64,000 nt of DNA from Gemmatimonadota bacterium (GCA_027623325.1 JAQBXY010000002.1:124001-188000), one strand, 5' to 3'; numbered from the stretch's first letter, positions 8,028 to 57,676 are shown. The notes: generated by a model from the sequence alone, not told the origin. Translations and numbers: made by a program.

Positions 8028-8082
8028 CTACTGAGGGCTTCGGCGTTGCGCCTACCCGCGTAGTCTATTGAGGGCTTCGGCG
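8028..8082. repeat. 18-bp direct repeat at the 3' end of the Sel1 gene
   Basis: CTACTGAGGGCTTCGGCG at 8028-8045 recurs as CTATTGAGGGCTTCGGCG at 8065-8082 (one mismatch, start-to-start 37 bases). The second copy is the end of the Sel1-repeat gene and the first lies just past its stop, so it looks like a short tandem duplication of the gene tail. Confidence 0.6.
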
Positions 8083-8780
8083 GCCGTCGCGTTACCCGCG
8101 GCGGCCGCCTTCTCGTACCAAGAGATCGCCTCGTCCAAGTTCTGAGCCGCTCCGCGACCCGCTTCGTAGGCTTCGCCTAGACGGAGCTGTGTGATGGCGT
8201 CCCCGACGCGCGCGGCGCGCAGCCACCACTGGGCGGCCGCGACATGATCGACTTCGACGCCGCGCCCATCCCGGTAGACGTTGCCGAGGTTGTGCATGCC
8301 GAGCACGTGCTCTCGTTCGCCCGCGAGCCGATACCAACGAACGGCTTCGGGATAGTCGACCTCCACGCCGAGCCCCTCATCGTACGCGGTCCCCATCAGG
8401 AAGATGGCTTCGATGTCGCCCCGCGCCGCGAGTGCGCGAACACTCGCGATGAAGAGGTCTGCGATCTCGCGGGCGCGTGGTTCGTCCCGCTCGAATCCCA
8501 TGCGTCCACGGGAGAGAACGCGGGCCATCCACATCTGCGACAGGGCATCGTCCCGGTCCTCGGCGGCCGCCAGGAGCAGGTCGTGAGCCCTGGCGTCGTC
8601 GACCCGGCCGGTCACCCCGGTGTACAGGTCGATCGCCTCGAGTAACCGGGTGTCGGCAGAGGTCGGCATCTGGGCCTCGAGGGCGGCTGCTGAGCAGGTC
8701 ACCGAAGCCGTCAGGAGTGCGGCAGTGAGGGCCAATCCTTCGAGGCGCGATCTGGTTCGCTTACAGGGGGCACGTTTCAC
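8052..8780 (-). CDS. exported Sel1-repeat protein
   Basis: A 242-residue protein with a signal peptide (hydrophobic stretch LALTAALLTASVTCSAAA, followed by LEAQ). From about residue 120 there are three consecutive Sel1-like repeats, each with the A-x-x-x-L-G-x-x-Y-x-x-G-x-G-V-x-x-D pattern followed by A-x-x-W-Y/W. Such repeats form solenoids for protein-protein contacts. GTG 8780 is chosen because it lies immediately after the stop of the upstream hydroxyacid dehydrogenase gene (one base between) and gives a complete signal peptide. Translation is therefore probably coupled to that enzyme, suggesting the two work together in the periplasm. Confidence 0.75.
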   Translation of the reverse strand: MKRAPCKRTRSRLEGLALTAALLTASVTCSAAALEAQMPTSADTRLLEAIDLYTGVTGRVDDARAHDLLLAAAEDRDDALSQMWMARVLSRGRMGFERDEPRAREIADLFIASVRALAARGDIEAIFLMGTAYDEGLGVEVDYPEAVRWYRLAGEREHVLGMHNLGNVYRDGRGVEVDHVAAAQWWLRAARVGDAITQLRLGEAYEAGRGAAQNLDEAISWYEKAAAAGNATAAEALNRLRG

Positions 8781-8781
8781 G

Positions 8782-10014
8782 TCAATCGACTCCGATCGAA
8801 TGGGGCCCGATGTCCGCGAGCGAAGGCGTGCCGACGGCCCGCATGGTGATCTCGAGTTCGCGGGTGAGGATCTCAAGCACTCGCTCAATGCCCTCTTGTC
8901 CGAACGCTCCGAGCCCCCACAAGTAGGGGCGACCGATCGCGACCGCGGTGGCGCCCCGCGCGAGACCCTTGAAGAGGTCGGTTCCGCGCCGGAACCCACC
9001 ATCCACGATGATCGGCATTCGTCCCGCGACTGCCTGAGCGATCTCCGGGAGTGCGTCGACTGTTCCTCTCCCGGACCCCTCGGCCCGCCCGCCGTGATTC
9101 GAGACCCAGATGGCGTCGACGCCGTACCCGACGGCCAGTTCGGCATCCTCGGAAGTAACGAGTCCCTTCACGACGATCTTCTGGTCCGTGATGTCGCGAA
9201 GCTGGTGGATGTAGTCCCACGTCATACTGGCGTCGGCTCCGCCCCGACTCCCCGTCGGCAGGCCACGCAGCATGGGCTTCACCGGATCGGCCCTCCCCCC
9301 CTCACGATGACAGCTCTCACAGTCGCGTTCGTCGATGCGGCCGTACCGTTCGACCGTGAGGCGATTGCTTCCCCCGTTCAGGTCAACCGTCAGGACGATG
9401 ACCGGGCAGCCGGCGTCCCGGACTCGTTGGACGAGCGCGACCGTACCGTTCCAGTTCGGGCGAGCATAGAGCTGGTACCACACGGGCTCGCCCCGCGCTC
9501 GATTGACCTCTTCCACGGCGGTGGAGGTTACAGTCGAGAGCGTCTGGAGGTGGTTCCGAGCTGAGGCGGCCCGAGCGGTGGCGAGCTCTCCATCCGGGTG
9601 AAACGCTCGTTGACTACCCGCGGGCGCGATGAGCAGGGGCGACGGCCACTCCCGGCCCAGCAGGGTAACGCGCGTATCGAGGCGAGAGACGTCGATCATA
9701 CGACGGGCGCGCAGGTAGATGCGCTCCAGTGCCGCCCGATTGTTCGCCTGCGTCTCCTCGCCGTCGACCCCGGTCATGATGTAGCCCCAATGGGCCAGTG
9801 GGACTTTGCTCGCGGCGACCTTCTCGAGATCGAACACGTCGAGCGCTTCCTGCGCCGTGGTCACGAGATCATCGAAAGTCCGACGGGGAGCCTCCTGAGC
9901 GATCAGGTCTTCGAACGTGGAGAGGCCTCCGGCCGAGGCGAGAAGAGGGCTCGCAGCAAGCCAACGCAGGAAGTGCCGTCGCTGGACGTCTCGGGGCGAA
10001 GTCGAAGGGGTCAT
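8782..10014 (-). CDS. Tat-exported FMN-dependent alpha-hydroxyacid (lactate-type) dehydrogenase with internal CxxCH
   Basis: A 410-residue member of the FMN-dependent alpha-hydroxyacid oxidase/dehydrogenase family (lactate, glycolate or mandelate type). Family landmarks: PLLIAPAG, WYQLYARPN, VIVLTVDL, KGLVTSEDA with flavin-contacting K283, and SNHGGR with the catalytic base H307. The N terminus reads QRRHFLRWLAASPLL, a twin-arginine signal, so it is exported folded with flavin. Unusual: residues 231-236 read D-C-E-S-C-H, a CxxCH of the heme c type, inside the variable loop 4 region. ATG 10014 is chosen for the Tat signal; 13 further residues upstream add nothing recognisable. It follows qhpE by 55 bases and probably belongs to the same transcript. 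Confidence 0.85.
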   Translation of the reverse strand: MTPSTSPRDVQRRHFLRWLAASPLLASAGGLSTFEDLIAQEAPRRTFDDLVTTAQEALDVFDLEKVAASKVPLAHWGYIMTGVDGEETQANNRAALERIYLRARRMIDVSRLDTRVTLLGREWPSPLLIAPAGSQRAFHPDGELATARAASARNHLQTLSTVTSTAVEEVNRARGEPVWYQLYARPNWNGTVALVQRVRDAGCPVIVLTVDLNGGSNRLTVERYGRIDERDCESCHREGGRADPVKPMLRGLPTGSRGGADASMTWDYIHQLRDITDQKIVVKGLVTSEDAELAVGYGVDAIWVSNHGGRAEGSGRGTVDALPEIAQAVAGRMPIIVDGGFRRGTDLFKGLARGATAVAIGRPYLWGLGAFGQEGIERVLEILTRELEITMRAVGTPSLADIGPHSIGVD

Positions 10015-10069
10015 GATGTGCACGGCGGGACGGAGGGAAGAGCCACGGTGCATCGATCGGAGGCACTCG

Positions 10070-10747
10070 TCAATCCGAAGCCGTCTCCTGCAGCAGTTCG
10101 AACGCCGCTTCGGCCGTCTTCACCTCGGGATGGTCCACGAGCGCGCGTGCGAGAGCGCCCGTAGCGTTCGCGACGGCGAAGCTGATGCCATTGAGGTTCC
10201 GTTCCGGGGGGACACCCGGGATGGGGCGCGGGTACCCGGACGCGCGCACCACCGTACGTCCTCCCGACTCTACGAGAGTGACGGTCTCCCTCTCCTGATC
10301 CGCGTCCATGACGACGCCGACCACCCCGTCCAGCGAGCCAGGGTACCAACGGCGGCCGTCGTGTTCGTGTGCGGACACGATGATCGTCCCGCGCTCCACG
10401 GCGCGTGCCACGGCGGGGGCGAGCTCCGGCTCCCGAAAGTCGTTCGGCGTACCAAGGCTCAGATTCGCGATCCGGATGCCACGGCTCGAAGCCCAGTCGA
10501 TCGCGCGTACCAGGATCGACACCGTCGTCGCGAGTTGCTCATCGAAGACTTTGACAGCGTAGAGTTCCGCTTGCGGCGCCTTTTCGTGAATCGCGGCGGC
10601 GGCGGCCGTCCCGTGTCCCAGCCGGTCGACGTAGTCGGCGACCTCTTGCCCCTGGAAGTTGATGGCGATGCCCCCGGCTAGTGCGGGGAGATGGGGGTGC
10701 GGAACGTTGGCGCCGCTGTCGATGATCGCGACGGTGACGGCGCTCAT
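10070..10747 (-). CDS. qhpE: QhpE: subtilisin-like protease that cleaves the QhpC leader
   Basis: A 225-residue S8 (subtilisin) protease with no signal peptide and no propeptide. The catalytic triad is visible: D10 in AIIDSG, H45 in GHGTAA, S189 in NGISFA. A minimal cytoplasmic subtilase beside a radical SAM enzyme and an ABC exporter fits QhpE, which in Paracoccus removes the leader of the crosslinked gamma subunit before export (established for the family). Its ATG overlaps the stop of the exporter gene by four bases (ATGA), so synthesis is coupled. Assignment rests on motif plus neighbourhood; on sequence alone it would just be a small subtilase. Confidence 0.88.
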   Translation of the reverse strand: MSAVTVAIIDSGANVPHPHLPALAGGIAINFQGQEVADYVDRLGHGTAAAAAIHEKAPQAELYAVKVFDEQLATTVSILVRAIDWASSRGIRIANLSLGTPNDFREPELAPAVARAVERGTIIVSAHEHDGRRWYPGSLDGVVGVVMDADQERETVTLVESGGRTVVRASGYPRPIPGVPPERNLNGISFAVANATGALARALVDHPEVKTAEAAFELLQETASD

Positions 10748-12477
10748 CCGGTGAGGACATCCAGGAAGAGGTCGCGGAAGGCGGCGCCCTCCGCTTCGAG
10801 GACCCGGGGCGTTCCGTCTTCCTCGATCCGCCCATTCTTCACGACGATCACACGTTCGGTCTGCCGGGCGAGGTCGAGCCGGTGCGTGATGAGGATCGTC
10901 GTGCGCCCTTTCATGACCCGGTCGTACCCTTCGAGCACCGCGGCTTCGGATGCTGGATCGAGCGCGCCGGTCGCCTCGTCCATGACCAGGACGGCCGGGT
11001 CGGCGAGGAAGGCCCGGGCGATCGCCAAACGTTGCCGTTCGCCCGCCGAGAGTTGGCGGCCACGTTCACCCACGATGGAATCCAGCCCATCGGGCATCGT
11101 CGCGACGAGTGCAGATAGTCCCGCCGCGGCGATGGCGTCGGCTACCTGAGCGTGGGTGGCATCGGGTCGGGCATAGCGCACGTTGTCCGCTACGCTGACG
11201 TGAAAGATGAACGGGTCCTGCTCGACAACGGCCACGTGCTGCCGGACGTCGGCGAGCCGCAGCTCCCTCAGGTCGACTCCATCGAGGAGCACCCGCCCCT
11301 TCTCGGGATCGAACTGCCGCGAGAGTAGTTCGGCGATCGTCGACTTGCCGCTACCGCTCGCTCCCACGATCGCGACCAACTGTCCGGCCGGAATCTCGAG
11401 GTCGATCCCGTCGAGCCCCTCGACGCCACGTCCGAAGCCGAAGCTGACTCCGTCGAGTTCAAACGCGCCTCGGCAAACGGGGAGGGAGGCCGGTGCTTCA
11501 GGCTCCGTCACGTCGGGGACGGTATCGAGCAGTTCATGTACGCGCACGAGGGACGCCCGTGCGGTCGCCAGATTCGTGTAAATCCCCATGAGGCCCTGAA
11601 CGGGCGCCATCAGTCGTGCTTGGTAAGCCATGAACGCGACGAGGGTCCCCAATGTCATCATCCCCTCGATGACCCGGTATCCGCCGTACAGGAAGACCAG
11701 GCTCGTGCCCGCGGTCAGGAGAAGGCCAGGTAGGCCGCCAGACAGGTACGTGAAGAGCCTCATGGAGAGCAGAGCATCGACGAACGAGTCGTTCCGGGTC
11801 CGGAAGCGTTCGACTTCCCGGCCCTGGGCGTTCGATCCGACCACCGTGCGCATCCCCTGGAGAGTCTCGATGAGAAATGAGCCGATCTCGGCGCTCCTCT
11901 CCCGGAGCACCCGGACCCGCTCCTCGAGTTGTCTTCGATACCGCACAAGCGCCCACAGGGAGGGAGGTACGGTCAGGAGTCCCGCGAGAAAGAGCTGCCA
12001 GTCGAGATACACGAGCATCACGACGGTTCCGATCAGCGCGACGACCTGTCCAAACCAGGCGAGGGCCGCCTCCGACGTCACCCGCTGGATTTCTCCGATA
12101 TCGCCGTTGATGCGAGACACGACATCGCCCAACGACGTGCGCGCGTAGAAACGTGGAGAAAGGCGCTGGAGATGCCGATACAGGACCAAACGCATGTCGA
12201 ACAAAATGTCGGCGGACACGCGGGTGTAGCGCATGCCACTGAAGACGTTGAGGCCGAACGAAACGATCGGGACGGCGATGAAGAGCCCGACGATCCGGAG
12301 GAGCGTCGGGAAGTCGCCGGGGATGATCGCGTCGTCGATGAGCAGCTTCGACAGGTATGGCAGGACGAGCGATAGTGCCGTCGAAACGAGGGATACGACG
12401 ACGACGGGCACGAGCGCGCCGACGTACGGTCGTACGTAGGCTAACGCGCGGCGAAAATGCGGATCGAGGACGGTCAC
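10744..12477 (-). CDS. qhpF: QhpF: ABC exporter for the QhpC gamma subunit
   Basis: A 577-residue half-transporter: six transmembrane helices in residues ~15-310 (ABC exporter type I fold), then an ATPase domain with Walker A GASGSGKST, Q-loop VVEQDP, signature LSAGERQ, Walker B VLVMDEATGALD and H-loop THR. It has no C39 peptidase domain, so leader removal must be done by a separate protease, here QhpE in the next, overlapping gene. In QHNDH producers QhpF moves the processed, thioether-crosslinked gamma subunit to the periplasm. It lies 19 bases after qhpB. Confidence 0.88.
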   Translation of the reverse strand: MTVLDPHFRRALAYVRPYVGALVPVVVVSLVSTALSLVLPYLSKLLIDDAIIPGDFPTLLRIVGLFIAVPIVSFGLNVFSGMRYTRVSADILFDMRLVLYRHLQRLSPRFYARTSLGDVVSRINGDIGEIQRVTSEAALAWFGQVVALIGTVVMLVYLDWQLFLAGLLTVPPSLWALVRYRRQLEERVRVLRERSAEIGSFLIETLQGMRTVVGSNAQGREVERFRTRNDSFVDALLSMRLFTYLSGGLPGLLLTAGTSLVFLYGGYRVIEGMMTLGTLVAFMAYQARLMAPVQGLMGIYTNLATARASLVRVHELLDTVPDVTEPEAPASLPVCRGAFELDGVSFGFGRGVEGLDGIDLEIPAGQLVAIVGASGSGKSTIAELLSRQFDPEKGRVLLDGVDLRELRLADVRQHVAVVEQDPFIFHVSVADNVRYARPDATHAQVADAIAAAGLSALVATMPDGLDSIVGERGRQLSAGERQRLAIARAFLADPAVLVMDEATGALDPASEAAVLEGYDRVMKGRTTILITHRLDLARQTERVIVVKNGRIEEDGTPRVLEAEGAAFRDLFLDVLTG

Positions 12478-12496
12478 GGTCCGCGGGGTGACTCCG

Positions 12497-13582
12497 CTAT
12501 TCGTTTCCTGGAATGATGGCGACGTTGCCCAGCGTCATGTCCTCGTCGAACTCGACGGTGCGCATGAGCGAAAACGTGGCGGCGTCATAGACATCGATCG
12601 TGTTGCCGGCCACGTGAACGTAGATCTTCGTTCCGTCGGCACTAACACCGAGCCCCATCCGAGCACGCCCCGGGAAGGGCACCCTCCGTGACACCCGCTC
12701 ATTCACGAGGTCGAACTCCCAGAACTCGTACGCCCCGATCGTCGTGTAGAGCGCATAAGCCTTCTCTCCACCCGGCGCGAGAACGAAACTGCCGACGGGT
12801 TCGGAGGGACCCAGTGTGAAGAAGTCGACCACCTTGTCGGACAAGCGCGCGCGCGCGATTCCCATCAGCGAGCGATTGTGCACGGGGTCCTGGATGCGGA
12901 TCAGGCTCGTCGCGACGCCCGGTTCGTCGTAGGTATTGGAATTCGTCCCGAAGTTCGGGCGACCGAGCCCCGGCTCCAGCGGTTGCGAAAGCTCCCAGCG
13001 GTCGACTTCCTCGTACGTGTCTGCGTCGACCGCGATGATGTCGCTCGTGAAGAAGTAGAGAACCTCGCCGTCGGGTGAGAACCGGAAGTTGGTGCGTTCG
13101 CTCGGTCCTCCCTCAGGCCAGGGAAGTGTATCCGTGACCTGTTTGGTCTCGAGGTCATACGCCACCAGGAACGGTCCTTCGACCGAGTAACGATCGATGA
13201 GCTTCGTGTAGTTCTTGACGAGCATCACCGCGCGTCGATCCGAGGGATGCGCCGCGAAGCCGTCGATGCGAACGACCACGCTGTCGTGGGTCAGCGTTAT
13301 CTCATCGATGACCTCCCGCAGCGCGATGTCGACGATTTGGATGTGTTGTCCCGATGCGTCCCCGACGTACAGGCGAGTCATCGCCTCGTTCAACTGGACG
13401 CCGTTGGGGATCGGGCGGTTCATCCGGATCCGATCGATGATCTCCTCGGTCGCTTCGTCCCAGACCAGCATGTCGGATGTATACGTCGAGATGTACCACG
13501 TCGCCGTTTGGGCGGACGCACGGGGTGCGACGAATCCGAGAATGCACGCGGCCGAAGCCACGCACCGCAGCGCAGTTCGCAT
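12497..13582 (-). CDS. qhpB: QhpB: beta subunit (propeller) of quinohemoprotein amine dehydrogenase
   Basis: A 361-residue exported protein: signal peptide (MRTALRCVASAACILGFVAP, then RASAQ) and a seven-bladed-type beta-propeller of YVTN-like strands (TATWYISTYTSDMLVWDEAT; QLNEAMTRLYVGDAS; FRFSPDGEVLYFFTSD; LGVSADGTKIYVHVAGNTIDVYDA). In QHNDH the beta subunit is a propeller whose interface with the gamma subunit forms part of the active site. ATG 13582 is chosen because it starts the signal peptide; the frame stays open upstream through the gamma and radical SAM genes, but that sequence is meaningless. It lies 11 bases after qhpC. Confidence 0.9.
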   Translation of the reverse strand: MRTALRCVASAACILGFVAPRASAQTATWYISTYTSDMLVWDEATEEIIDRIRMNRPIPNGVQLNEAMTRLYVGDASGQHIQIVDIALREVIDEITLTHDSVVVRIDGFAAHPSDRRAVMLVKNYTKLIDRYSVEGPFLVAYDLETKQVTDTLPWPEGGPSERTNFRFSPDGEVLYFFTSDIIAVDADTYEEVDRWELSQPLEPGLGRPNFGTNSNTYDEPGVATSLIRIQDPVHNRSLMGIARARLSDKVVDFFTLGPSEPVGSFVLAPGGEKAYALYTTIGAYEFWEFDLVNERVSRRVPFPGRARMGLGVSADGTKIYVHVAGNTIDVYDAATFSLMRTVEFDEDMTLGNVAIIPGNE

Positions 13583-13593
13583 GATGGTACCGA

Positions 13594-13956
13594 CTAAGGG
13601 AAAATGAGGTCGAGTTTGCGCCAATCCTTCTGGGCCGACGCGCACTTTCCGGTCCAATCGGGCGCGTGGTTGAGCTGATCGGGTACGTGGGCTGGCCAGA
13701 AGCAGGAAATGTGACAGTCGAAGATGTCCCTCTCGACCGGCTGGCACAGACCGGCGGTGCCGCCACGGGAGTCGACTTCCCATCCTGGCGAGAAGGCGAG
13801 CGAGCAACCCAGCGGGAAGTGGGGGCCTTCCTCTTCGTGCGGCGGCGTTCGAAGACCGACGACATCCATCTCTTCCGCCTTCGCGCGCGATGCCTCGTGC
13901 GCGACGTAGGCTTCGATGCGGCTGGCCTTCTGATTGATGGGCCTCAGGTGTTTCAC
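13594..13956 (-). CDS. qhpC: QhpC: gamma subunit precursor carrying the CTQ cofactor and thioether bridges
   Basis: A 120-residue peptide with a polar, charged leader (residues 1 to ~44) and a Cys-rich core. Every residue used in the mature proteobacterial gamma subunit is present at the same spacing: C51-E60, C71-D77 and C85-D93 for the three Cys-Asp/Glu thioethers, and C81-W87 for the cysteine tryptophylquinone (CTQ). All map to the published mature numbering (7-16, 27-33, 41-49, 37-43) by a constant offset of 44. The core motifs PGWEVD, LCQPVE, DWRKL are also typical. One extra cysteine, C105, has no known partner. The start is GTG with a strong AGGAGG upstream. The leader is probably recognised by QhpD and removed by QhpE. 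Confidence 0.93.
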   Translation of the reverse strand: MKHLRPINQKASRIEAYVAHEASRAKAEEMDVVGLRTPPHEEEGPHFPLGCSLAFSPGWEVDSRGGTAGLCQPVERDIFDCHISCFWPAHVPDQLNHAPDWTGKCASAQKDWRKLDLIFP

Positions 13957-14001
13957 TCGGGTGCCTCCTTCTTGCGATTTCCCATGACCATGATTCGACG
14001 A

Positions 14002-15474
14002 TTAGGCGTCGAATCGCTCCAGGAACTTCGGGTTCTTCTCTGCCAGAGCGCCGTAGATCTCGAGGCAGGTGTGGGTCCAGCTTCGCACCCACGTACAATA
14101 ATGCAGATTGGCCTTCGACGAGTCTCCGTATTGGACGTGAGCCTCGTGATAACAGCCTCCCGAACAGATAGGTCGGGCCCAGCAGGTGTGACAGTCGGTC
14201 TTGGTCGAGATGTGGTGGTCTACCAGGAACTTCCCCTGCTTCTCGCGGTCCACTCCGTCCTTCACGGTCCCGATCGTGTGTTCCGGGGACCCCGCGAAAC
14301 GATGGCACAGCGACACGTCACCGTCGGTGGCCACCCCCATCAGGCCGAGTCCCGCGCCGCATCCGTAGGCCTTGCTCACACCTTTGTGGATCTCCTCGAT
14401 CGTATCGGTCACGTTCGTGAAGCCGTGGTGTTCATCGCGGATCGCGCACGCGAGCCACTCCTGCGCGAGTTCCCGGAACTGGCTGAGCATATGGTCCTTC
14501 GCATCGGGGGTGATTGCGTAGTCCCGATGGTCTTGAGTCGTCACCGGCGCCAGACCGACCTCCCTAAACCCGATCTCCTGGGTCAGGTGTCGATAGATCT
14601 CGAGCACATTCAGGTTCTTTTGTGTGAGCGTCACGCGCGCGCCGATTGGCCGCGAACGGTGCGTAGCGATCAACTCCTTGATCTTCGGCAACACGACGTC
14701 GTAGGTGCCTTTCCCGTTGTGGAAGACACGGAGGCCGTCTTGTACAGGCTTGGGTCCGTCGATCGAGATGGTGACGCCGATGTCGTTGTCGGCCAGCCAC
14801 TGGATGACGTCCGGCTTCAACAACGTCGCGTTGGTCGTCAGGCTGAACTCGATGCGCGTGCCCTCTTCCGCAGCGCGTCGACGTGCGTACGCGACCGTCT
14901 TCTGCAGGATGGGGAAATTCAGCAGCGTCTCCCCACCGAAGAACGTCAGGTGTGCGACAGGCTGCCCCCTGGACTCGGCTAGCAGGAACTCGACGCTCTC
15001 TTCAGCCGTGTCGTCACTCATGAACTTCGGCTGCTTTCCATACTGCGTGTCGACGATCTTGTCGTCGCCGTATTCATAGCAGTAGGTACACGCCAAGTTG
15101 CACTTGTTCGTGACGTTGAGGACCATGGTGTTGAGCGGGAAATCCGCCGGAGGCAGGTCGTTTGGCACCTCCTCCTTCGGAGCACTCGGGTCTCCGATCG
15201 CACGAATCTCCGTCAGTTCCTGGATCGTCCCGAGGATGCGGTCGACGTCGAACTGCCCCGCCAATTCCTCGACCAGCGCGTCGGTGTCCTTCGGCGCTCC
15301 CGAGAGAGCGTCCAGGACCGCACAGCCTGCTTCGTCCATCCGGAAGATTCCCGCGGACGGGACCATGTAGAGGAAGCGGGCGCCGAACGCATCGAACCTG
15401 TGAAACTCACGGAGCGCGAGAGCCTGGCTGGCTCCCGTGCCCTCCGCGGCTCCTATCGCGACGGGCGGGTTCAT
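14002..15474 (-). CDS. qhpD: QhpD: radical SAM/SPASM enzyme forming thioether crosslinks in QhpC
   Basis: A 490-residue protein. Residues ~20-95 form a PqqD-like peptide-recognition domain (FGARFLYMVPSAGIFRMDEAG). The radical SAM core has C125-C129-C132 in NKCNLACTYCYEYG (CxxxCxxC, binds the 4Fe-4S cluster and S-adenosylmethionine). The C-terminal SPASM region has conserved cysteines in YGCGAGLG, VSLCHRF, DCHTCWARPICSGGCYHEAH and LHYCTW, binding auxiliary clusters. In Paracoccus QhpD installs three Cys-to-Asp/Glu thioethers in the gamma subunit in the cytoplasm. The ATG overlaps the qhpA stop by four bases; qhpC follows after 45 bases. Size and domain order match QhpD. Confidence 0.93.
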   Translation of the reverse strand: MNPPVAIGAAEGTGASQALALREFHRFDAFGARFLYMVPSAGIFRMDEAGCAVLDALSGAPKDTDALVEELAGQFDVDRILGTIQELTEIRAIGDPSAPKEEVPNDLPPADFPLNTMVLNVTNKCNLACTYCYEYGDDKIVDTQYGKQPKFMSDDTAEESVEFLLAESRGQPVAHLTFFGGETLLNFPILQKTVAYARRRAAEEGTRIEFSLTTNATLLKPDVIQWLADNDIGVTISIDGPKPVQDGLRVFHNGKGTYDVVLPKIKELIATHRSRPIGARVTLTQKNLNVLEIYRHLTQEIGFREVGLAPVTTQDHRDYAITPDAKDHMLSQFRELAQEWLACAIRDEHHGFTNVTDTIEEIHKGVSKAYGCGAGLGLMGVATDGDVSLCHRFAGSPEHTIGTVKDGVDREKQGKFLVDHHISTKTDCHTCWARPICSGGCYHEAHVQYGDSSKANLHYCTWVRSWTHTCLEIYGALAEKNPKFLERFDA

Positions 15475-17147
15475 CTCTCGTCTCCTATTGGGGGGCGACC
15501 CGATTCGATTTCACGCCACGGCTCCCAGCGCATGTACAACGGCGGGGCCACGACCAGGTGGGCGCGAGCGGACAACGCGCCGCCATCGCCGAGCGTGGCC
15601 ACAACCCAGACATCGCCGATGTTGTTTCGCAGGCCCGACCGTTCAGGGTTCGGTCCGTCCACGGCCGGAACGAACACACCGTCCGTTCCGATGTGTCCCA
15701 CGAAGTCGATATCGTCGTCGCCGAACGTAGCGGCGTATTCTTCCAAGTGCCAGGAGACGGCGACTCTTCCGAGGTTCAGGTCGTCGTCGGTGTTCGGCTC
15801 GCCGTCCGGTCCGTTGTCGTAACCAATCGCGTCGAACGCCTGGTATCCCTTGGGATGCACCACACCACCAGCCCGAGCGAGGCCCGTTTCCGGCGTGATC
15901 CCGATCCGATCGACGCCGTCATGCACAACCACAGCTCGTTCGGCGATCGATCCGTTCGAATACACGTCGCGGGCACCGAGATTGGCGTTGGCCATCACGC
16001 TCACTCGGACCCGCAGCGACCCGTCGGTTCCTGCGTTTGTCGACTCAACGGTGATGCCTGCGCCGAAGTCCAACTCCGACGACGACGTGAGCCCCAGGCC
16101 GAATACCTGAACGTCCGTCGCAACGCCCTTCTCGAGGGCCATAGGATACACGCCGGAGACGACCGCGCCTCCGCTGACCCTGCGAAGGGTCACGTCGGGG
16201 CCCACTTCATCATAGTCCCCGCGGAACCACCTGCCCGATATCTCACTCTGTCCTCGTTCGACGAGCATCACTTCTCGGAGTTCATCCTCCGCGCCCGGAT
16301 TCGAACGGCCGCGCCATTGGAAACCGGTGTAGATCGCCGATCGGCCTGTGCGCTGGACGCGTTGGCCGGATTCTGCATATACGTAGGCCGTCGAGGTCGT
16401 GAACGCGTCGGGGTCGCCGGGGTCGGCGATGATGGTCACGGTCCCGAAGATCGGACCCTTCCCCGGTTCGTGACCCGCTAGGGTCCATGTACCGGCCAGG
16501 CGAGGAGACCGCTTCGTGGCCGACCAGGCCGACCACTCAGGCGTCTCGAGGGGAAAGACCTCTGAGAGATGATCAATCGCTTCATCCATGGGGTGTGGTC
16601 CCGAGTCCGGGCCTCCCCGACCGCCGTTCCGGAACGCCTGGCGGTCCACGAGGGGGTAGAGTCCGCGATGGGTCGCGAGAAGAAGTGACCACTCCTCGCC
16701 GGTGCGCCGCTGGGTGATCACACGTCCCATCGAATGGCACTGAATGCACGTATACTCTACGCCGGAGTCCCCTTCGTAATCGTGGTCCAACGAGCGACGC
16801 TCGACCTCGAACATGCCCGGTCGGAGTTCCTCTGGGGCGAGTCCCTGCTCGTTGGCCAGATAGCGAACGATTTCCGTCGCGTCGGCCTGGTTCAGTCGCG
16901 CCCCGTGCAGCGCCATCATGCGACGAATCGACGTCTGCCACCCTTCGGGCGTCTTCCGCAGATATGAGATTCGTGACATCCGTCCGTCGTCGTCGACGAC
17001 GTGACAGCGGGAGCACCGGTCGATCACCTTCTCGTTCGCGATCGCGTACCCTTCGGGCGCTTCCTGCGGCGCGGGGCTCCAAGCGAGCAACACGCTTCCC
17101 GCGGCGAAGGTGACGATCGAGAAGAGCGCGCGGTGGGGAGACGCCAT
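15471..17147 (-). CDS. qhpA: QhpA: diheme cytochrome c alpha subunit of quinohemoprotein amine dehydrogenase
   Basis: A 558-residue exported protein: signal peptide (residues 1-28), then two c-type heme sites, C45-S-R-C48-H49 and C134-I-Q-C137-H138, in two small cytochrome domains, followed by ~390 residues of beta-rich domains (lipocalin-like barrel at SPRLAGTWTLAGHEPGKG and Ig-like segments), the layout of the QHNDH alpha subunit. It passes electrons from CTQ in the gamma subunit to a periplasmic acceptor. Cytochrome maturation must be provided elsewhere in the genome. The gene starts 88 bases after the qhpG stop and overlaps qhpD by four bases. Confidence 0.92.
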   Translation of the reverse strand: MASPHRALFSIVTFAAGSVLLAWSPAPQEAPEGYAIANEKVIDRCSRCHVVDDDGRMSRISYLRKTPEGWQTSIRRMMALHGARLNQADATEIVRYLANEQGLAPEELRPGMFEVERRSLDHDYEGDSGVEYTCIQCHSMGRVITQRRTGEEWSLLLATHRGLYPLVDRQAFRNGGRGGPDSGPHPMDEAIDHLSEVFPLETPEWSAWSATKRSPRLAGTWTLAGHEPGKGPIFGTVTIIADPGDPDAFTTSTAYVYAESGQRVQRTGRSAIYTGFQWRGRSNPGAEDELREVMLVERGQSEISGRWFRGDYDEVGPDVTLRRVSGGAVVSGVYPMALEKGVATDVQVFGLGLTSSSELDFGAGITVESTNAGTDGSLRVRVSVMANANLGARDVYSNGSIAERAVVVHDGVDRIGITPETGLARAGGVVHPKGYQAFDAIGYDNGPDGEPNTDDDLNLGRVAVSWHLEEYAATFGDDDIDFVGHIGTDGVFVPAVDGPNPERSGLRNNIGDVWVVATLGDGGALSARAHLVVAPPLYMRWEPWREIESGRPPIGDER

Positions 17148-17235
17148 CGGCTAAGAGGGGCTGAGAGGATTCAGATAGACACTATCGTGCGGTTTCGGGC
17201 GCCACAACGCCAGTAGAGCGTGGGTTGGATCCGTG

Positions 17236-18804
17236 CTAACGGTCGGCATGCCGTAGGAAGCCGGCGGCAAACGCGGTCGAGAGGGCGGTCAGGTAATCGG
17301 GCAGAGTGACAGGTGCCGCGACTCCATTATATGCGGTCCAGCCGTCTGGCACATCGGCGTGTTGGGGCGCGATCTGTACGATGTGGCGCAAGTCCACGTT
17401 CCGGACATAGCGCATGCCCTCGGGGAATTGGTCGCTCGCGAGATGGTCCTGGATCACGACTCGATATCCGTCGATGCCGGGGCGTTCGAAGACACGCAGC
17501 GTGGCCCCGGGGACTGCGTCGAGTCGATCGCGCTGGCGGATCGTCTCGAAGGCACGGCGAACGTCGTCGGCCGGGACCTCGTGGCCCCCCATGTGGTCGG
17601 GGTCTCCCGCGCCTGATGGATCGGCCGGACCCGATGCCTCGTGTGCCGATGCAGCTCGCTCGGACCAATAGGTGGTGCCGTGGGCCTCGGCCGCCGCTTC
17701 GAAGAATGGGGCGGAGACCGCTCGGTAGCTCCGGTAGACCTCACGCTCTCTCGCGTCGAAGAAGCTCGCCGCGGATTCGGACATGCCCGGGTCGATCAAC
17801 GCCGTGTGCGCGACGACACCCGCGAGCCATCCCGAGGAAAGCGCCTTCTTGACCCCAAACGATGAAAGTGGATCGATGAAGGACCCGGCGTCCCCCAAGA
17901 GTAGGAGGCCGGGACGTCCGAGGCGCGGGGTCGAATAGAGGGATGCCGGACAAGCCCATGCTTCACCATCGGGTGTCGCCCCGACACGAGTCGCCCCAAT
18001 GTGCTCGGTCTTGCCTAGCTCGCGTTCGAGCATTGAGCCGACGTCCGAACCCTCGAGATCTGCACGACGTTGGTCGACCATTGCCGTGTAGCATCGCACG
18101 TCATCGCTGAGCGGCACCGACCACGCCCACCCGTCGGCGTAGCTCTCGACCAGCGTGTGTCCGGCTTCATCGGGCCATCCACCCTCTCGCCGCCAACGCC
18201 CGACGAGGGCCAGGGTGGTGGTGCTCCGGTCCGGTTGCCGTCCTTCCTTGCGAGCCTGAAATCCGTGGCGCCCGGTCGCGTCGAGCATCCATGGCGCGCT
18301 GATCTCGGTCACTGCTCCATCGTTTCCTTCACAGCGCACGATCCAGCCGGCGTCGGATTCGGTCGCCGTACGGGCCGTCATTCCGTCGAATACCAGCGCG
18401 CCGACCGAACTCGCCTGGCGGACCAGGACCTCTTCCAACGTGCCTCGATCGACGTGGAATCCCGACCCGTCCTCCGCGAAGGCCTCTCTCCGCACCGGTT
18501 GGCCGGCCCACCAGACCGTGTTGCCGCGGTTCTTATGGAAGCCGGCCGCGCGAACCGCATCGAGAACGCCGAGTTCGGCGAATAACTTGGTCGCCGAGGG
18601 CGGGATCGACTCCGCGAGTGCGGCCGCCGCCGGGAGTGTGGGGTGCACGAGCGCGACCCGATGACTCCTGCGGGCGAGCAGGGTTGCAGCCGCGGAACCC
18701 GCGGGTCCGCCGCCCACGATCAGGACCTCGACCTCCACCGTTTTCAGAGGGTCACCTCCGCCCGACGTCTCAGTTCGACGGGACGCAGGCGCAGCCCCCG
18801 CCAC
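17236..18804 (-). CDS. qhpG: QhpG: FAD-dependent tryptophan hydroxylase for CTQ formation
   Basis: Up to 522 residues. The Rossmann FAD site is VLIVGGGPAGSAAATLLAR, the second FAD motif is GLLLLGDAGSFIDPLSSFGVKKAL (GD box), and WMLDATGRHGF lies between, all typical of group A flavin monooxygenases and tryptophan-halogenase-like enzymes. QhpG hydroxylates the gamma-subunit tryptophan that becomes CTQ (family knowledge). The C-terminal ~130 residues are a separate region also found in QhpG proteins. The start is uncertain: ATG 18804 overlaps the preceding zinc-ribbon gene by 35 bases and adds ~20 disordered residues; GTG 18738, or a CTG nine bases upstream of it behind GGAGGTGA, would begin right at the FAD domain. 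Confidence 0.88.
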   Translation of the reverse strand: MAGAAPASRRTETSGGGDPLKTVEVEVLIVGGGPAGSAAATLLARRSHRVALVHPTLPAAAALAESIPPSATKLFAELGVLDAVRAAGFHKNRGNTVWWAGQPVRREAFAEDGSGFHVDRGTLEEVLVRQASSVGALVFDGMTARTATESDAGWIVRCEGNDGAVTEISAPWMLDATGRHGFQARKEGRQPDRSTTTLALVGRWRREGGWPDEAGHTLVESYADGWAWSVPLSDDVRCYTAMVDQRRADLEGSDVGSMLERELGKTEHIGATRVGATPDGEAWACPASLYSTPRLGRPGLLLLGDAGSFIDPLSSFGVKKALSSGWLAGVVAHTALIDPGMSESAASFFDAREREVYRSYRAVSAPFFEAAAEAHGTTYWSERAASAHEASGPADPSGAGDPDHMGGHEVPADDVRRAFETIRQRDRLDAVPGATLRVFERPGIDGYRVVIQDHLASDQFPEGMRYVRNVDLRHIVQIAPQHADVPDGWTAYNGVAAPVTLPDYLTALSTAFAAGFLRHADR

Positions 18805-19012
18805 ACCCCTGGAACCCGGTGTCGCGGCTTGACCCGGTGACCGGCGCCGGAACGCTCATGAGGCGTTCCACCGGAGTGTCCTCGGGAGTGTCTCCCATAT
18901 CGACTCCCGATCGACCCGCGACTTCACCCCAGGTGGCGAGACGTTCGTTCATTCCATGGCGGACTTCGAGTGTCCGTCCGTTGGTTCCACAGTGATACTC
19001 GTAGTACGGCAT
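18770..19012 (-). CDS. FmdB-like small zinc-ribbon protein at the head of the qhp operon
   Basis: An 80-residue protein starting MPYYEYHCGTNGRTLEVRHG, the opening of FmdB-type zinc-ribbon regulators, but with only one of the usual paired cysteines (HC-GTNG). Four cysteines cluster at the end (G-C-GGG-C-A-C-V). The middle (MNERLATWGEVA...PVERLMSVPAPVTGS) resembles the spacer of such proteins. It is the first gene of the minus-strand qhp series, overlapping the longest qhpG reading frame, and is divergent from the amidohydrolase gene with only 39 bases between start codons. Its role in QHNDH formation is unknown; a metal-binding or regulatory partner is possible. Confidence 0.7.
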   Translation of the reverse strand: MPYYEYHCGTNGRTLEVRHGMNERLATWGEVAGRSGVDMGDTPEDTPVERLMSVPAPVTGSSRDTGFQGCGGGCACVPSN

Positions 19013-19051
19013 CGGCTTGCTCCGGCTGGTGGCCACGAGAATGTTAAGCCA

Positions 19052-20524
19052 ATGAAGATCATGAGTTCCAGTCGCCCCCTCCGCACATCCCTCCTCGCGG
19101 CCGTCGCGCTCGCATCAGCCTGGTGGGTTCCCGCGGCGCTGGCGGCCCAGGTCACGACGCCCCAGGCGGGCGACCTCGTCGTTCTCGGTGGCCGCCTTTG
19201 GGACGGGACCGGAGACGGCGCTGTACCGAATCCGGGGATCCTCATTCGGAACGGAACGATCCTTCGGATCGGTGGGGTGGAGCCTCTGGGGAGTGGGGCG
19301 GAAGCGGTCCTGCTCGACGACGAGCACTTCGTCATGCCGGGCCTCTTCGATCTGCACGCCCACTATGCCGTCGATCTGTTCGGCGAAGGGCGCGTCGATG
19401 AGTACACGGTCAACCCGGTGCTCTTCCTGGCCAACGGGGTCACCTCGACGTTCCCTGCCGGCGAGGTCGACCCGGCTGAAGCGCGGAGGGGCCGCGAGCG
19501 GATCGCCTCAGGGGAGCTGCCGGGCCCGCGCATCTACAGCTCCGGACCCTATTGGGGCACGGCGCGTCCGGGGTGGAGCCACGAAGCGATGACCCCGGAC
19601 TCCCTTCGCAAGGAGGCCACTTTCTGGGCGCTCCGCGGCGTCCGAGGGTTCAAGGCGAAGGGGATCCGACCCGAGCAACTCCAGGTCCTCATCGACGTCG
19701 CGCACGAGCACGGCATCACCGTGACGGGTCACCTGGACTCCGGTTTTCGCGACAGCGTCAATCCACGACAAGCGATCCTCATGGGTATCGACCGGATCGA
19801 GCACTTCCTCGGCGGGGACGCCCTGCCCGAGAGCCAGAGTGCCTACGCTTCACTCGAAGCGCTGGAACTTCGGGATGCTGCGACTGCGGCCAGGATTCGC
19901 GAACAGTCGGAGCTGTTCATCGATCAGGGTACGTACTACGACGCCACACTCACTGCCTATGGCTACTTCGCAGACCGTGAGCCGGTCGTCTTCGACTACT
20001 GGGCGGACGAGATGGGTTTCCTCACGCCCTACGCTCGCCAAGCCGTCGAGCGAGCTTTGCCCCGGAGGCCGCTCGATCAGTTCGAGCGCATCTACTATGT
20101 GAAGCGCCAGACGGTGAAGGCTTTCTACGAGGCCGGAGGTGGCGACCAGCTTACTCTCGGGACCGATCACCCCAGTTGGGGCGAGTTCTTCAGCGGCTTC
20201 GGATCACACCGTGAGCTGCATGCGATGGTGCTCGCGGGAATTCCGAATCCCGCCGCGCTCCGGGCGGCGACGATCAACGCCGCGCGGGCCATGGGCGTCG
20301 ATGAGAGGCTCGGCACCATCGAGCAGGGCAAGTACGCCGACCTGCTCATTGTGCGGGGCGATCCGCTCACGCGGATCACCGACACCCGAAACGCACACGT
20401 CGTGATTCGCGCCGGCCGCGTCTACGATCCGGAGGAGCTCTTCGATTCCGTGCGCGGTAGTCTGGGCCCGAAGAGTGAGGCCGACGCGGACTGGTGGAGG
20501 GGCAACGTGCGCCTGGGCCGTTGA
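19052..20524 (+). CDS. exported metal-dependent amidohydrolase
   Basis: A 490-residue amidohydrolase-superfamily enzyme with a signal peptide (residues ~5-33, LLAAVALASAWWVPAALAAQ). Metal ligands visible: H-x-H in MPGLFDLHAHYAVD, the GHLDSG and IEHFLGGD histidines in the middle, and the late aspartate in LGTDHPSWGEF. The C-terminal NAARAMGVDERLGTIEQGKYADLLIVRGDP is the hallmark of imidazolonepropionase/Xaa-Pro dipeptidase-like amidohydrolases. Substrate unknown, probably a cyclic amide or dipeptide in the periplasm. Two in-frame ATG codons (19052, 19061) are possible; neither has a strong ribosome site. The following gene begins at the stop. Confidence 0.85.
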   Translation: MKIMSSSRPLRTSLLAAVALASAWWVPAALAAQVTTPQAGDLVVLGGRLWDGTGDGAVPNPGILIRNGTILRIGGVEPLGSGAEAVLLDDEHFVMPGLFDLHAHYAVDLFGEGRVDEYTVNPVLFLANGVTSTFPAGEVDPAEARRGRERIASGELPGPRIYSSGPYWGTARPGWSHEAMTPDSLRKEATFWALRGVRGFKAKGIRPEQLQVLIDVAHEHGITVTGHLDSGFRDSVNPRQAILMGIDRIEHFLGGDALPESQSAYASLEALELRDAATAARIREQSELFIDQGTYYDATLTAYGYFADREPVVFDYWADEMGFLTPYARQAVERALPRRPLDQFERIYYVKRQTVKAFYEAGGGDQLTLGTDHPSWGEFFSGFGSHRELHAMVLAGIPNPAALRAATINAARAMGVDERLGTIEQGKYADLLIVRGDPLTRITDTRNAHVVIRAGRVYDPEELFDSVRGSLGPKSEADADWWRGNVRLGR

Positions 20525-54183: not shown

Positions 54184-55298
54184 GCGATCCGGTCGACCCG
54201 GCGCGCCTGGCCTCGTTCGTATCGCCGCACGGCTTCGGACACGCCGCCCGCTGCTCCGCGGTCATGGCCGCGGCCCATCGGCAGGGCGGAGTTCACTTCG
54301 ACCTGTTCACCACGGCGCCCCGGTGGTTTTTCGACGAGTCGATCGCGAGGATCTTCCGGTACCACGAAGCCGTGGTCGACGTCGGCTTCCGTCAGCACTC
54401 GGCGCTCGAGGTCGATCTTCCGGCCACGATCGCGGCGCTGCTGGACCACGTACCGCTCGACGAGGGGCTGATCGACGAGCTGGCCGATCGGGTCCGATCG
54501 GCGGGATGTGTCGGCGTGCTCTGCGACATCGCGCCGCTGGGTATCGCCGTAGCGGAGAAGGCAGGGCTGCCCTCCGTGCTCGTCGAGAATTTCAGCTGGC
54601 CCTGGCTGTATGAACCGTACATCTCCGATCGGCCCGAACTCGAGGCGATCGGGGTCGAACTCGATCGCTGGTCTGAGCGAGCGACGGTCCACGTCCAGGC
54701 GCGACCCGTGTGCCATCGGCAGTCCGGCCTCGAACTCGTGGATCCCATCAGTCGCGAGCCTCGACTCGAACGCGCTGATGCGAGACGCGCTCTCGGAGTC
54801 GAAGGCGACGGGCCGGTCGTCGTTCTCACCATGGGTGGATACGGAGAGGAGTTCCCGTTCCTGGACCGGCTCCGCGACGTTCGCGATACGACCTTTGTCG
54901 TAACCGGAATGCCGGCCACCAGCATCGACGGCAACCTGCTCATGTTCGACAATACGACACCGCTCTTCATGCCCGACGTGCTCCGTGCCGCGGATGCGGT
55001 CGTCGCCAAACTCGGGTATGGCACCGTGGCGGAGGTCTGGCGCGAGGGGCTCCCCTTTGGGCACGTCACGCGGCGCGACTTCCGTGAAATGCCACCGCTG
55101 GAACGGTTCGCCGCGGACGAGATGAGTGGCTTCCTGATCGAAGGCGACGCGTTCGCATCAGGCTACTGGGTGGATCGGATCCCGGAACTCCTGGCCAAAC
55201 CCCGACGGCCCCATTCGATGGGGGGTGCCTCGCGGGTCGCTGAAATCCTTCTTGACGTGTCCGGGCTGGCCGATCCGTCGGTCCCTACGGAACCATGA
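54180..55298 (+). CDS. GT-B-fold glycosyltransferase-like protein
   Basis: A 372-residue protein like MurG/UDP-glucuronosyltransferase-type GT-B enzymes. It starts [21 protein letters not shown] (GFGH motif with catalytic-type histidine), has [28 protein letters not shown], and the donor half [12 protein letters not shown]...[26 protein letters not shown], the acidic nucleotide-sugar loop. GTG 54180 overlaps the creatininase stop. Its 3' end overlaps the convergent lactate-permease gene by 14 bases. Acceptor unknown. Confidence 0.75.
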
Positions 55299-56982
55299 GG
55301 GGGTCGGTCACTCCGAGCAGATGCACCGCGATCATGCCAAGGGTTCCGATCACCAGCAGGTAGTAGATCGTCGGCAGGATCGTCATCCGAAGCGTCGAGC
55401 CTTCCTTGCCCAACAGTCCGACCGTCGCGGAAGCGGCCACGACGTTGTGAATGGCGATCATGTTCCCGGCAGCGGCACCGACCGCCTGGAGGGCGACGAT
55501 CATGACGGTGGACATGGCCAGGCGCTCGGCGACGCCGTACTGAAACGCCGCGAACATCAGGTTGCTGACCGTGTTCGAGCCTGCGATGAAGGCCCCGAGC
55601 GCTCCGGTCATCGGTGCGAAGAACGGCCATACCGCGCCCACGTTACCCGCGACCCACTCTGCCATCGCGAGTGGCATCGACAGTAGAGCCGCTCCATTCA
55701 CGTCGGAATTGATGTAGACCCGTACCATGGGCACGGTGAAGACCAGCACGATCCCCGCGCCAGCGAGGACCTGTGTGGACGAACGCATGGCCTCGCCCAG
55801 AGCGCGGCCATCCATCCGGTGCAGGAGCGCGGTGATGAGCACGACGACGAGTAACACGAAGCCCGGCAAATACAGGGGGGTGGTCGTCGCGGTGATCCCG
55901 GAGCCGAGGATGTCGGCCCAGACGAAGTCGACCGTCCTCAGCCAGCGGCCGACGGGAAGTGACGGCAGGCGCGTGAGCACGAGTATTCCGCCGAGAAGCG
56001 CGTAGGGAGCCCACGCCGACAGGGTTGAGATGCCCTTGCCCTCAGGCACGTCGGAGAGCTTGTCCTCGAGTCCGCTCACCCACTCCGAGTTCCACGACTC
56101 GCGCGGTGGAAACTCCCATCGGTCCTTGGGGATCAGCCAACCCCGGCGCGCCACGGTGACTACGATCGCCAGTCCGATGGGCGCTCCCAGCAGCGATGGG
56201 AACTCGGGCCCGAGGAAGGTTCCGAAGAGGACGTAGGGCACGGTGAACGCGAGCCCACCGAAGAGCGCGAACGGGAGGATCGAGAGCCCTTCGGTCCACG
56301 ATCGGTTCGCCCCGAAGAAGCGGGTCAGCATGACGATCATCCACGTCGGCATGAGGACTCCGGCAACGGCATGGAGGAGCACGACCTTGGCGGTCACCGC
56401 CTTCAAGTAGTCGAGCATGCTGAGGTCGGCCGACGCCAGAGCGAGGGCAAAGGCATCGCCACCCAGTCCGCCCTGAACGCCCACGAGCACGGGTGTCCCG
56501 ACGGCGCCGAAGGTCACTGCGGTGCTCTGGATCATCATGCCCAACATCACGGCCGCGGCCGCCGGGAAACCCAATGCGACCAAGAGTGGAGCCGCCACGG
56601 CGGCCGGTGTACCGAAGCCGGCCGCGCCTTCGATGAACGAACCGAACAGCCAGGCCACGATGACGACCTGCACCCTGCGATCGTCACTGATGCCGTTGAA
56701 GGAGCGTCGGATGGCGGCTACGCCACCCGACCGCTCGAGCGTGTGGAGGAGTAGGATCGCTCCGAAGATGATGAAGAGCAGGTCGAACGTCAGGAAGAGT
56801 CCCTGGATCGACGCTGCGGCGACCCGCGAAAGCGTCATCTGCCACGCCGCCATCGCGACGAGAACAGCAGCGAGATACGCGGCTGGCATCGCGTGTTTGG
56901 CGGGGACCCGGAATCCGACGAGCAGCACCCCACCGAGGGCGATCGGAAACAGGGCCAGCGCGGCTTGAAGGCCGAGGGTCAT
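55285..56982 (-). CDS. L-lactate permease family (LctP) transporter
   Basis: A 565-residue carrier with about 13 hydrophobic segments. LctP landmarks are [51 protein letters not shown] near residue 160, and [31 protein letters not shown] late. It imports lactate or glycolate with protons. ATG 56982 is chosen for the first helix. A lactate-type dehydrogenase exists at 8782-10014 but is far away and periplasmic, so no functional link is proven. Followed upstream by DUF2461 and pdxH genes on the same strand. Confidence 0.85.
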
Positions 56983-56998
56983 GGGGCGGGGTTCGAGG

Positions 56999-57676
56999 TC
57001 AGAAGGGCACGGACAGCGAATCACAGAGGAAGCGCATAAAGGGCAGTCCCGCCCGGTAGGTCTTGGCCAGGTCGGCGGGGAGTGAGGGGCTCGTCGCGAA
57101 CTTCTCGCTCACCCTTTTGACTCCGATGAAGTCCTTGCGCTTGAGGTCGTCGATCATCGGATGCTCCGGATCGAAGCCTTTCGGTGGTCGCTTGAGGCTC
57201 TCACCCTCGAGGGCGAACGCTTCGGTGAATTTCTTGGCCCGTGAGGTGCGTTTCCACGACGTGGGGTCTTCCGCGATGTGCTCTCGGATGTGCCGCAGTG
57301 CCTGCGCGTCGGGGTGCCAGATGCCGAGCGCGACGAAGACCTCACCGGGAGCGATGTGCAGGTAGAACCCGGGGGCGTGGGCATCCTCCGATTGTTCGTG
57401 TCGGAAGTGGATCCCTGCCGACGTCTTGTACGGAGTCTTGTCCTTCGAGAAGCGCGTGTCGCGATGGATCCGAAAGAGGGACCGAGGCGTCGCCATGAAA
57501 TGGGGACTCAACGAATTCAGTTCCTTCCCGAAGTCCTCGATCAACCGCAACGCCGGGGTCTTCAGATCGTCCTCGTACCGGGACTTGTTGGCGGCGAACC
57601 AGCTTCGGTCGTTGTTGGCCTTCAGGTCCTCGAGAAAGCGGAAAGTCGACTTCGTGAAGAATGGGGTCCCCGCCAA
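56999..57676 (-). CDS. DUF2461-family protein
   Basis: A 225-residue cytoplasmic protein. [44 protein letters not shown] and [23 protein letters not shown] are the recognisable DUF2461 (TIGR02453) signatures, with [21 protein letters not shown]. Function unknown across the family. The start is TTG, supported by AAGGAGGAG just upstream. It lies 12 bases after the pdxH stop. Confidence 0.85.

Follow-up and report, generated by a model that had tools for sequence, protein, structure and literature searches.

A complete-looking quinohemoprotein amine dehydrogenase operon in Gemmatimonadota, from a distinct lineage with five cysteines in QhpC

To our knowledge, the characterised quinohemoprotein amine dehydrogenases (QHNDHs) are all proteobacterial. 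A stretch of 64,000 nucleotides from a Gemmatimonadota genome (hereafter, the window) was predicted to carry a QHNDH locus together with the genes needed to mature the enzyme. Does the locus really encode a QHNDH, and does it represent a lineage distinct from the proteobacterial enzymes?

All predicted genes are present on the minus strand of the window, at 8052-19012. The order is a zinc-ribbon gene, qhpG-A-D-C-B-F-E, an LldD-like gene and a Sel1 gene, which agrees with the original prediction as to the one-strand order of the qhp genes and the three flanking genes. The features are listed below, in the direction of transcription and with curated cut-offs for the qhp families.

18770..19012, minus strand: degenerate FmdB-like zinc-ribbon gene, 80 aa (PF09723, FmdB/Zn_ribbon_8, 21.4 bits, under the cut-off of 34.4; 11 homologues lie upstream of qhpG)
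17236..18804, minus strand: qhpG, predicted flavin monooxygenase (peptidyl Trp dihydroxylase) (NF049967 216 bits, cut-off 240; hhalign E 7.2e-38)
15471..17147, minus strand: qhpA, alpha subunit with signal peptide and two CxxCH (TIGR03908 449 bits, cut-off 274; four Pfam domains; 1jmx_A, E 1.6e-78)
14002..15474, minus strand: qhpD, radical SAM/SPASM maturase, predicted to make Cys-Asp/Glu thioethers in QhpC (TIGR03906 549 bits, cut-off 453)
13594..13956, minus strand: qhpC, gamma subunit precursor, GTG start (PF08992 115 bits, cut-off 25; NF037958 124.3 bits, cut-off 50; 1jju_C and 1jmx_G)
13642..13644, minus strand: extra invariant Cys codon of qhpC, at P. putida gamma position 61 (alignment of lineage and classical QhpC)
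12497..13582, minus strand: qhpB, beta-propeller beta subunit, strongly diverged (TIGR03907 34 bits, cut-off 223; hhalign E 6.5e-33 over 330 columns)
10744..12477, minus strand: qhpF, ABC exporter (ABC_membrane and ABC_tran; 40% identity to Pseudomonas/Cupriavidus plasmid QhpF)
10070..10747, minus strand: qhpE, subtilisin-like leader peptidase (NF049966 166.1 bits, cut-off 165; triad Asp10/His45/Ser189)
8782..10053, minus strand: LldD-like FMN 2-hydroxyacid dehydrogenase with a Tat-like signal (RRHFLRWLAASPLL) (PF01070 354 bits)
9307..9321, minus strand: CESCH, the loop-4 CxxCH of the LldD-like protein (CxxCH in 30/30 homologues)
8052..8780, minus strand: gene for a secreted Sel1-repeat protein, 242 aa, GTG start (Sel1 90.6 bits; homologue beside every qhp-linked LldD examined)

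Both predicted ATGA couplings were located: the qhpA stop and qhpD start share 15471-15474, and the qhpF stop and qhpE start share 10744-10747. The other gaps within the operon are 88 nt (G/A), 45 nt (D/C), 11 nt (C/B) and 19 nt (B/F). Downstream, about 16 nt separate qhpE from the LldD-like gene, whose stop is 1 nt from the GTG start of the Sel1 gene. The real start of qhpG probably lies at about 18740-18765, and the genome has one QhpC-type gene. A gene for a secreted amidohydrolase (window 18956-20524, plus strand) stands head to head with the operon; its likely start at about 19043-19052 leaves about 40 nt to the zinc-ribbon start.

Family models assign the locus to QHNDH. QhpA, QhpC, QhpD and QhpE score above the curated NCBIfam cut-offs, and every one of the QhpA domains PF09098, PF14930, PF09099 and PF09100 is above its cut-off. 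The haem motifs of QhpA, CSRCH and CIQCH, are intact, and their four Cys are found in 65/65 relatives. An alignment of QhpC with the gamma subunits of the two solved QHNDH structures covers 72 residues and shows every residue of the cross-links and the quinone to be retained (Cys7-Glu16, Cys27-Asp33, Cys41-Asp49 and Cys37-Trp43); by analogy with Paracoccus, the leader of QhpC would run to about VVG34. The 10 Cys of QhpD are conserved (68/68 and 5/5), and QhpE retains its catalytic triad. QhpG falls below its cut-off, yet this model is by far its best NCBIfam match, and profile-profile comparison with four proteobacterial sequences makes it a full-length homologue of their QhpG. The same kind of comparison, again with four proteobacterial sequences, identifies QhpB as a full-length homologue of classical QhpB (probability 99.9) despite its low family score; its gene occupies the qhpB position in the operon, and the mature protein has no Cys. 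QhpF is nearest to the Pseudomonas and Cupriavidus plasmid proteins. The genome also encodes TatC and CcmF, the latter for cytochrome c maturation.

QhpD also matches models for the PapB, nif11 and SCIFF maturases, which might suggest that QhpC and QhpD form another RiPP-type system, making a sactipeptide or ranthipeptide. However, none of these scores exceeds 278 bits; all fall short of the cut-offs of their models and reach about half the QHNDH value, and subunits A, B and C all lie adjacent and match QHNDH. The original prediction had named another RiPP family as the competing assignment; the QHNDH models score far above the others, and we regard a different RiPP system as extremely improbable. 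A related genome (G227) has a broken qhp locus, with a fragment of QhpC and a 40-aa fragment of QhpF, and the operon in the window could likewise be a decaying remnant. All seven of its reading frames are intact, however, with conserved catalytic residues in place, and the genes are tightly spaced and overlap twice at ATGA; decay is very unlikely.

Judging by its sequence, the locus is therefore very probably a complete, functional-looking QHNDH operon that follows the general mechanism of the family. The prediction of a complete locus with its maturation genes in a Gemmatimonadota genome is borne out by the family scores and profile-profile matches. By build, the locus is ordinary and complete, a member of a known enzyme system.

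The steps of maturation and catalysis were characterised in the Paracoccus and Pseudomonas systems (PMC7876137), and are carried over here to a locus known from its genes and key residues alone. QhpC would be synthesised with a leader. In the cytoplasm, QhpD would make the Cys-Asp/Glu thioethers in QhpC, and QhpG would dihydroxylate Trp43. QhpE would then cut off the leader, and QhpF would export the QhpC product. In the periplasm, QhpA, with two c-haems, and QhpB would join QhpC, and Trp43 would be converted to cysteine tryptophylquinone (CTQ). The enzyme would oxidise primary amines to an aldehyde and ammonia, passing electrons via the haems to a periplasmic acceptor. The LldD-like/Sel1 pair would be a loosely associated periplasmic addition whose probable activity is the oxidation of 2-hydroxy acids.

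QHNDH is reported to be widely distributed, in over 1300 species (PMC7876137), so its presence in Gemmatimonadota is by itself unsurprising. The suggestion that this phylum is an unusual place for the enzyme did not hold: of the 395 Gemmatimonadota genomes that we sampled, 75 have QhpC (64 of the 286 good ones), and they belong to 20 of the 138 genera. Scanning with QhpD yielded 73 named loci, chiefly from Gemmatimonadota, Acidobacteriota and Planctomycetota, and A, B, C, E and F are recognisable nearby in nearly all of them, given a long enough contig.

The proposed approach of searching the phylum and building trees revealed a separate lineage. In a QhpD tree and a concatenated QhpD+QhpA tree (33 rows), neither rooted by the data, the classical loci of Paracoccus, Pseudomonas, Cupriavidus and Leisingera stand apart from all others, with support of 100/100 for this split in the QhpD+QhpA tree; the proteobacterial sample is small and taken from plasmid records. 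The second group consists of Gemmatimonadota, Acidobacteriota, Planctomycetota and one plasmid of Novosphingobium sp. RL4. There is thus a distinct five-Cys QHNDH lineage, reaching far beyond the source genome. The original prediction of a distinct lineage stands as far as its separation from classical proteobacterial QHNDH is concerned. The three flanking genes that it invoked are local to a few genera of close relatives and define no lineage. The marks of the lineage lie instead in the proteins, namely Cys61 and acidic residue 72 of QhpC and the changes in QhpG. Our literature search, whose coverage did not extend to the main QhpD paper, found no paper that describes a QHNDH from this phylum or a fifth Cys in QhpC.

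The Novosphingobium plasmid locus (NZ_CP141945.1) resembles that of the window in its five-Cys gamma subunit and a 50% identical QhpD, but it has a proteobacterial host, and BLAST did not find QhpG within 19 kb. It is an alphaproteobacterial member of the lineage, probably by way of transfer. Certain records titled Gammaproteobacteria or Rhodospirillaceae (L058, L061, L062, L066, L096 and L032) carry qhp loci that group with Gemmatimonadota; these titles are probably wrong.

The QHNDHs of Paracoccus denitrificans and Pseudomonas putida (PDB 1jju/1pby and 1jmx/1jmz) share with the window the three subunits, two CxxCH in alpha, the four thioether/CTQ positions in gamma and the QhpD/E/F/G genes. 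However, their gamma subunits have Ala, Gln/Gly, Ala/Ser, Gly/Ala and Trp where those of the five-Cys lineage have Cys61, acidic residue 72, Arg32, Asp36 and mostly Phe/Tyr42. The QhpC studied here also has a longer leader and a longer mature N-terminus before Cys7, QhpB is about 22% identical, QhpG has an insert and lacks Arg47/Arg70, and there is no QhpR. A plasmid locus of Leisingera sp. NJS204 that is annotated as QHNDH (NZ_CP035424.1) has the same G-A-D-C-B-F-E order on one strand. It differs in its classical four-Cys gamma subunit, an AraC regulator upstream and an aldehyde dehydrogenase downstream, and it has no zinc ribbon, LldD or Sel1.

The absence of the regulator QhpR, as originally claimed, was confirmed. 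The best QhpR-like match in the source genome has 23 bits and is on another contig, and none of the six AraC-type genes of the genome is on the qhp contig. The absence is general, in that QhpR is not recognisable in any of the 73 related loci. The Cupriavidus plasmid locus likewise yielded no QhpR. QhpR, an amine-induced regulator, is accessory rather than a defining feature of QHNDH.

In the second group, mature QhpC contains five Cys, and the fifth corresponds to P. putida position 61. All 74 lineage sequences (those from the window, from the scanned loci and from Novosphingobium) have this Cys, as do all 74 phylum-search sequences examined (73 scored and one, L198, checked by eye). Position 61 is Ala in 6/6 classical QhpC and in five more plasmid sequences (11 classical sequences checked). 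Position 72 is acidic in all lineage members examined and in none of the 11 classical sequences; classical QhpC has Gln or Gly there. Asp36 and Arg32 also mark the lineage, and most of its members have Phe or Tyr instead of Trp42; Asp67 is found in classical QhpC too. The QhpC of L198 (G392, contig C605) has Trp in place of Cys27 (LWQP for LCQP) and so loses one known cross-link, possibly through a sequencing error or in a broken copy.

No known cross-link explains Cys61. A conserved partner Cys was sought in QhpA and QhpB of the lineage loci, and none was found; we rejected an interchain disulfide, given that QhpA conserves its haem Cys only and QhpB no Cys. All other QhpC Cys end in a QhpD-made thioether or CTQ, and for this reason we propose that Cys61 may form a fourth QhpD-made thioether, with acidic residue 72, 67 or 36. 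We hold this view tentatively, as something that could well be wrong, because the change maps to one branch, the only one on which Cys61 and acidic residue 72 co-occur, and because AlphaFold with QhpC and 12 relatives, at a pLDDT of 40, gave no usable model for judging how far Cys61 lies from acidic residues. Cys61 might instead be a free thiol, form a gamma-gamma disulfide or lie close to a metal or haem. With a single lineage-wide origin, its co-occurrence with acidic residue 72 may be a coincidence, and an acidic residue among five lineage-specific QhpC positions is not very surprising. By contrast, thioethers take up every other QhpC Cys, it would be unusual for a free periplasmic Cys to persist in 74/74 sequences over three phyla, and QhpA and QhpB offer no partner. 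We lean slightly towards one of these other roles, which compete with the thioether at Cys61 only and not with the identity of the enzyme as QHNDH.

QhpG is about 60-80 aa longer than its classical counterparts, with an insert that precedes the C-terminal segment. In the lineage it keeps the Trp181/Trp183 motif, and Arg47 and Arg70 of the P. denitrificans protein are replaced. Mutation of these two residues in P. denitrificans QhpG nearly abolished activity, and QhpC Trp42 was modelled within the QhpG pocket of that species (PMC7876137). QhpG and QhpC may have changed together. BLAST with the window QhpG as query found no QhpG in L081-L088, L092, L101, L103 and L104, which comprise Acidobacteriota five-Cys loci and the Novosphingobium plasmid. 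These would encode a strongly diverged QhpG or a different hydroxylase. A second deep QHNDH lineage that alters the most heavily modified subunit is a natural test of how QhpD chooses Cys and acidic partners, and likewise of how QhpG can function when it lacks two arginines essential to the Paracoccus protein.

On a plasmid of Bradyrhizobium septentrionale (L109:1250-7687), a QhpD-like radical SAM gene lies beside a “tryptophan 7-halogenase” (of a QhpG-like family), a ferritin-like gene and two hypothetical genes. This set looks like another peptide-modifying system made from QhpD-type and QhpG-type enzymes. Plasmids of Bradyrhizobium barranii and Mesorhizobium have similar pairs in their annotation.

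The five-Cys lineage could have changed its substrate or electron acceptor, and so be a CTQ amine dehydrogenase by build that no longer acts as a general aliphatic amine dehydrogenase. The barely recognisable QhpB, the replacement of Trp42 in most members and the differing pocket residues of QhpG would fit such a change. In addition, we found no aldehyde dehydrogenase neighbouring the qhp operon, whereas one is present in four annotated proteobacterial plasmid loci. However, the lineage retains catalytic Asp33 and Trp43 along with both haems and every cross-link, and several aldehyde dehydrogenases are encoded elsewhere in the genome. We consider a changed function unlikely, and prefer amine oxidation as in the characterised systems.

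Turning to the flanking genes, the zinc-ribbon protein has CGTNG in place of CxxCG, has lost the usual CxxC pairs and ends in GCGGGCACVP. Its gene is conserved with qhpG in close relatives only.

The LldD-like protein has the FMN_dh domain and active-site motifs in common with glycolate oxidase, mandelate dehydrogenase and flavocytochrome b2. Its QLY, (V/I)KG and SNHGGR motifs occur in all close homologues, and we take the roles of the catalytic Tyr, Lys, His and Arg to be those in glycolate oxidase. It has a Tat-like signal and a CxxCH in loop 4, instead of the membrane segment of mandelate dehydrogenase or the b-haem domain of flavocytochrome b2. The Tat-like signal is strongly conserved in most complete homologues, and the CxxCH, in addition to the 30 homologues counted above, occurs in a Methylobacterium plasmid homologue. 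With TatC and CcmF encoded in the genome, these features suggest a possible exported flavocytochrome with a c-type haem. A point against haem binding is that Tat carries proteins already folded, whereas haem c is joined to proteins that are still unfolded, outside the membrane. If the CxxCH does bind haem, the protein would be of a flavocytochrome type for which we found no description in the literature searched. A joint reading, in which a non-proteobacterial lineage makes a fourth Cys-Asp/Glu thioether (five thioethers counting CTQ) and, in some genera, has a Tat-exported c-haem 2-hydroxyacid dehydrogenase in its periplasmic neighbourhood, seems to us possible but doubtful.

Of the 395 genomes, 38 have a close LldD homologue (E below 1e-140), and 36 of the 38 also have a QhpC match, linked or unlinked (in G227, a fragment only); the 38 genomes span only five genera, so these are not 36 independent events. 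A Sel1 homologue adjoins every qhp-linked LldD examined. In one genome (G287) the LldD/Sel1 pair occurs although QHNDH is absent, and G227 has LldD beside its broken qhp locus; the pair is therefore associated with QHNDH, not dependent on it. We rejected LldD as an obligate part of QHNDH, given that two genomes have LldD without QhpC and that it is unlinked to qhp in Palauibacter and another genus. The decayed locus of G227 (L141:6852-11454) retains the C-terminal part of QhpC, a nearly full-length QhpB and the short QhpF fragment, followed by the LldD-like gene. Finally, a reading frame at window 55285-57024 (minus strand) has an N-terminus that resembles lactate permease, and is possibly relevant to the LldD-like gene.
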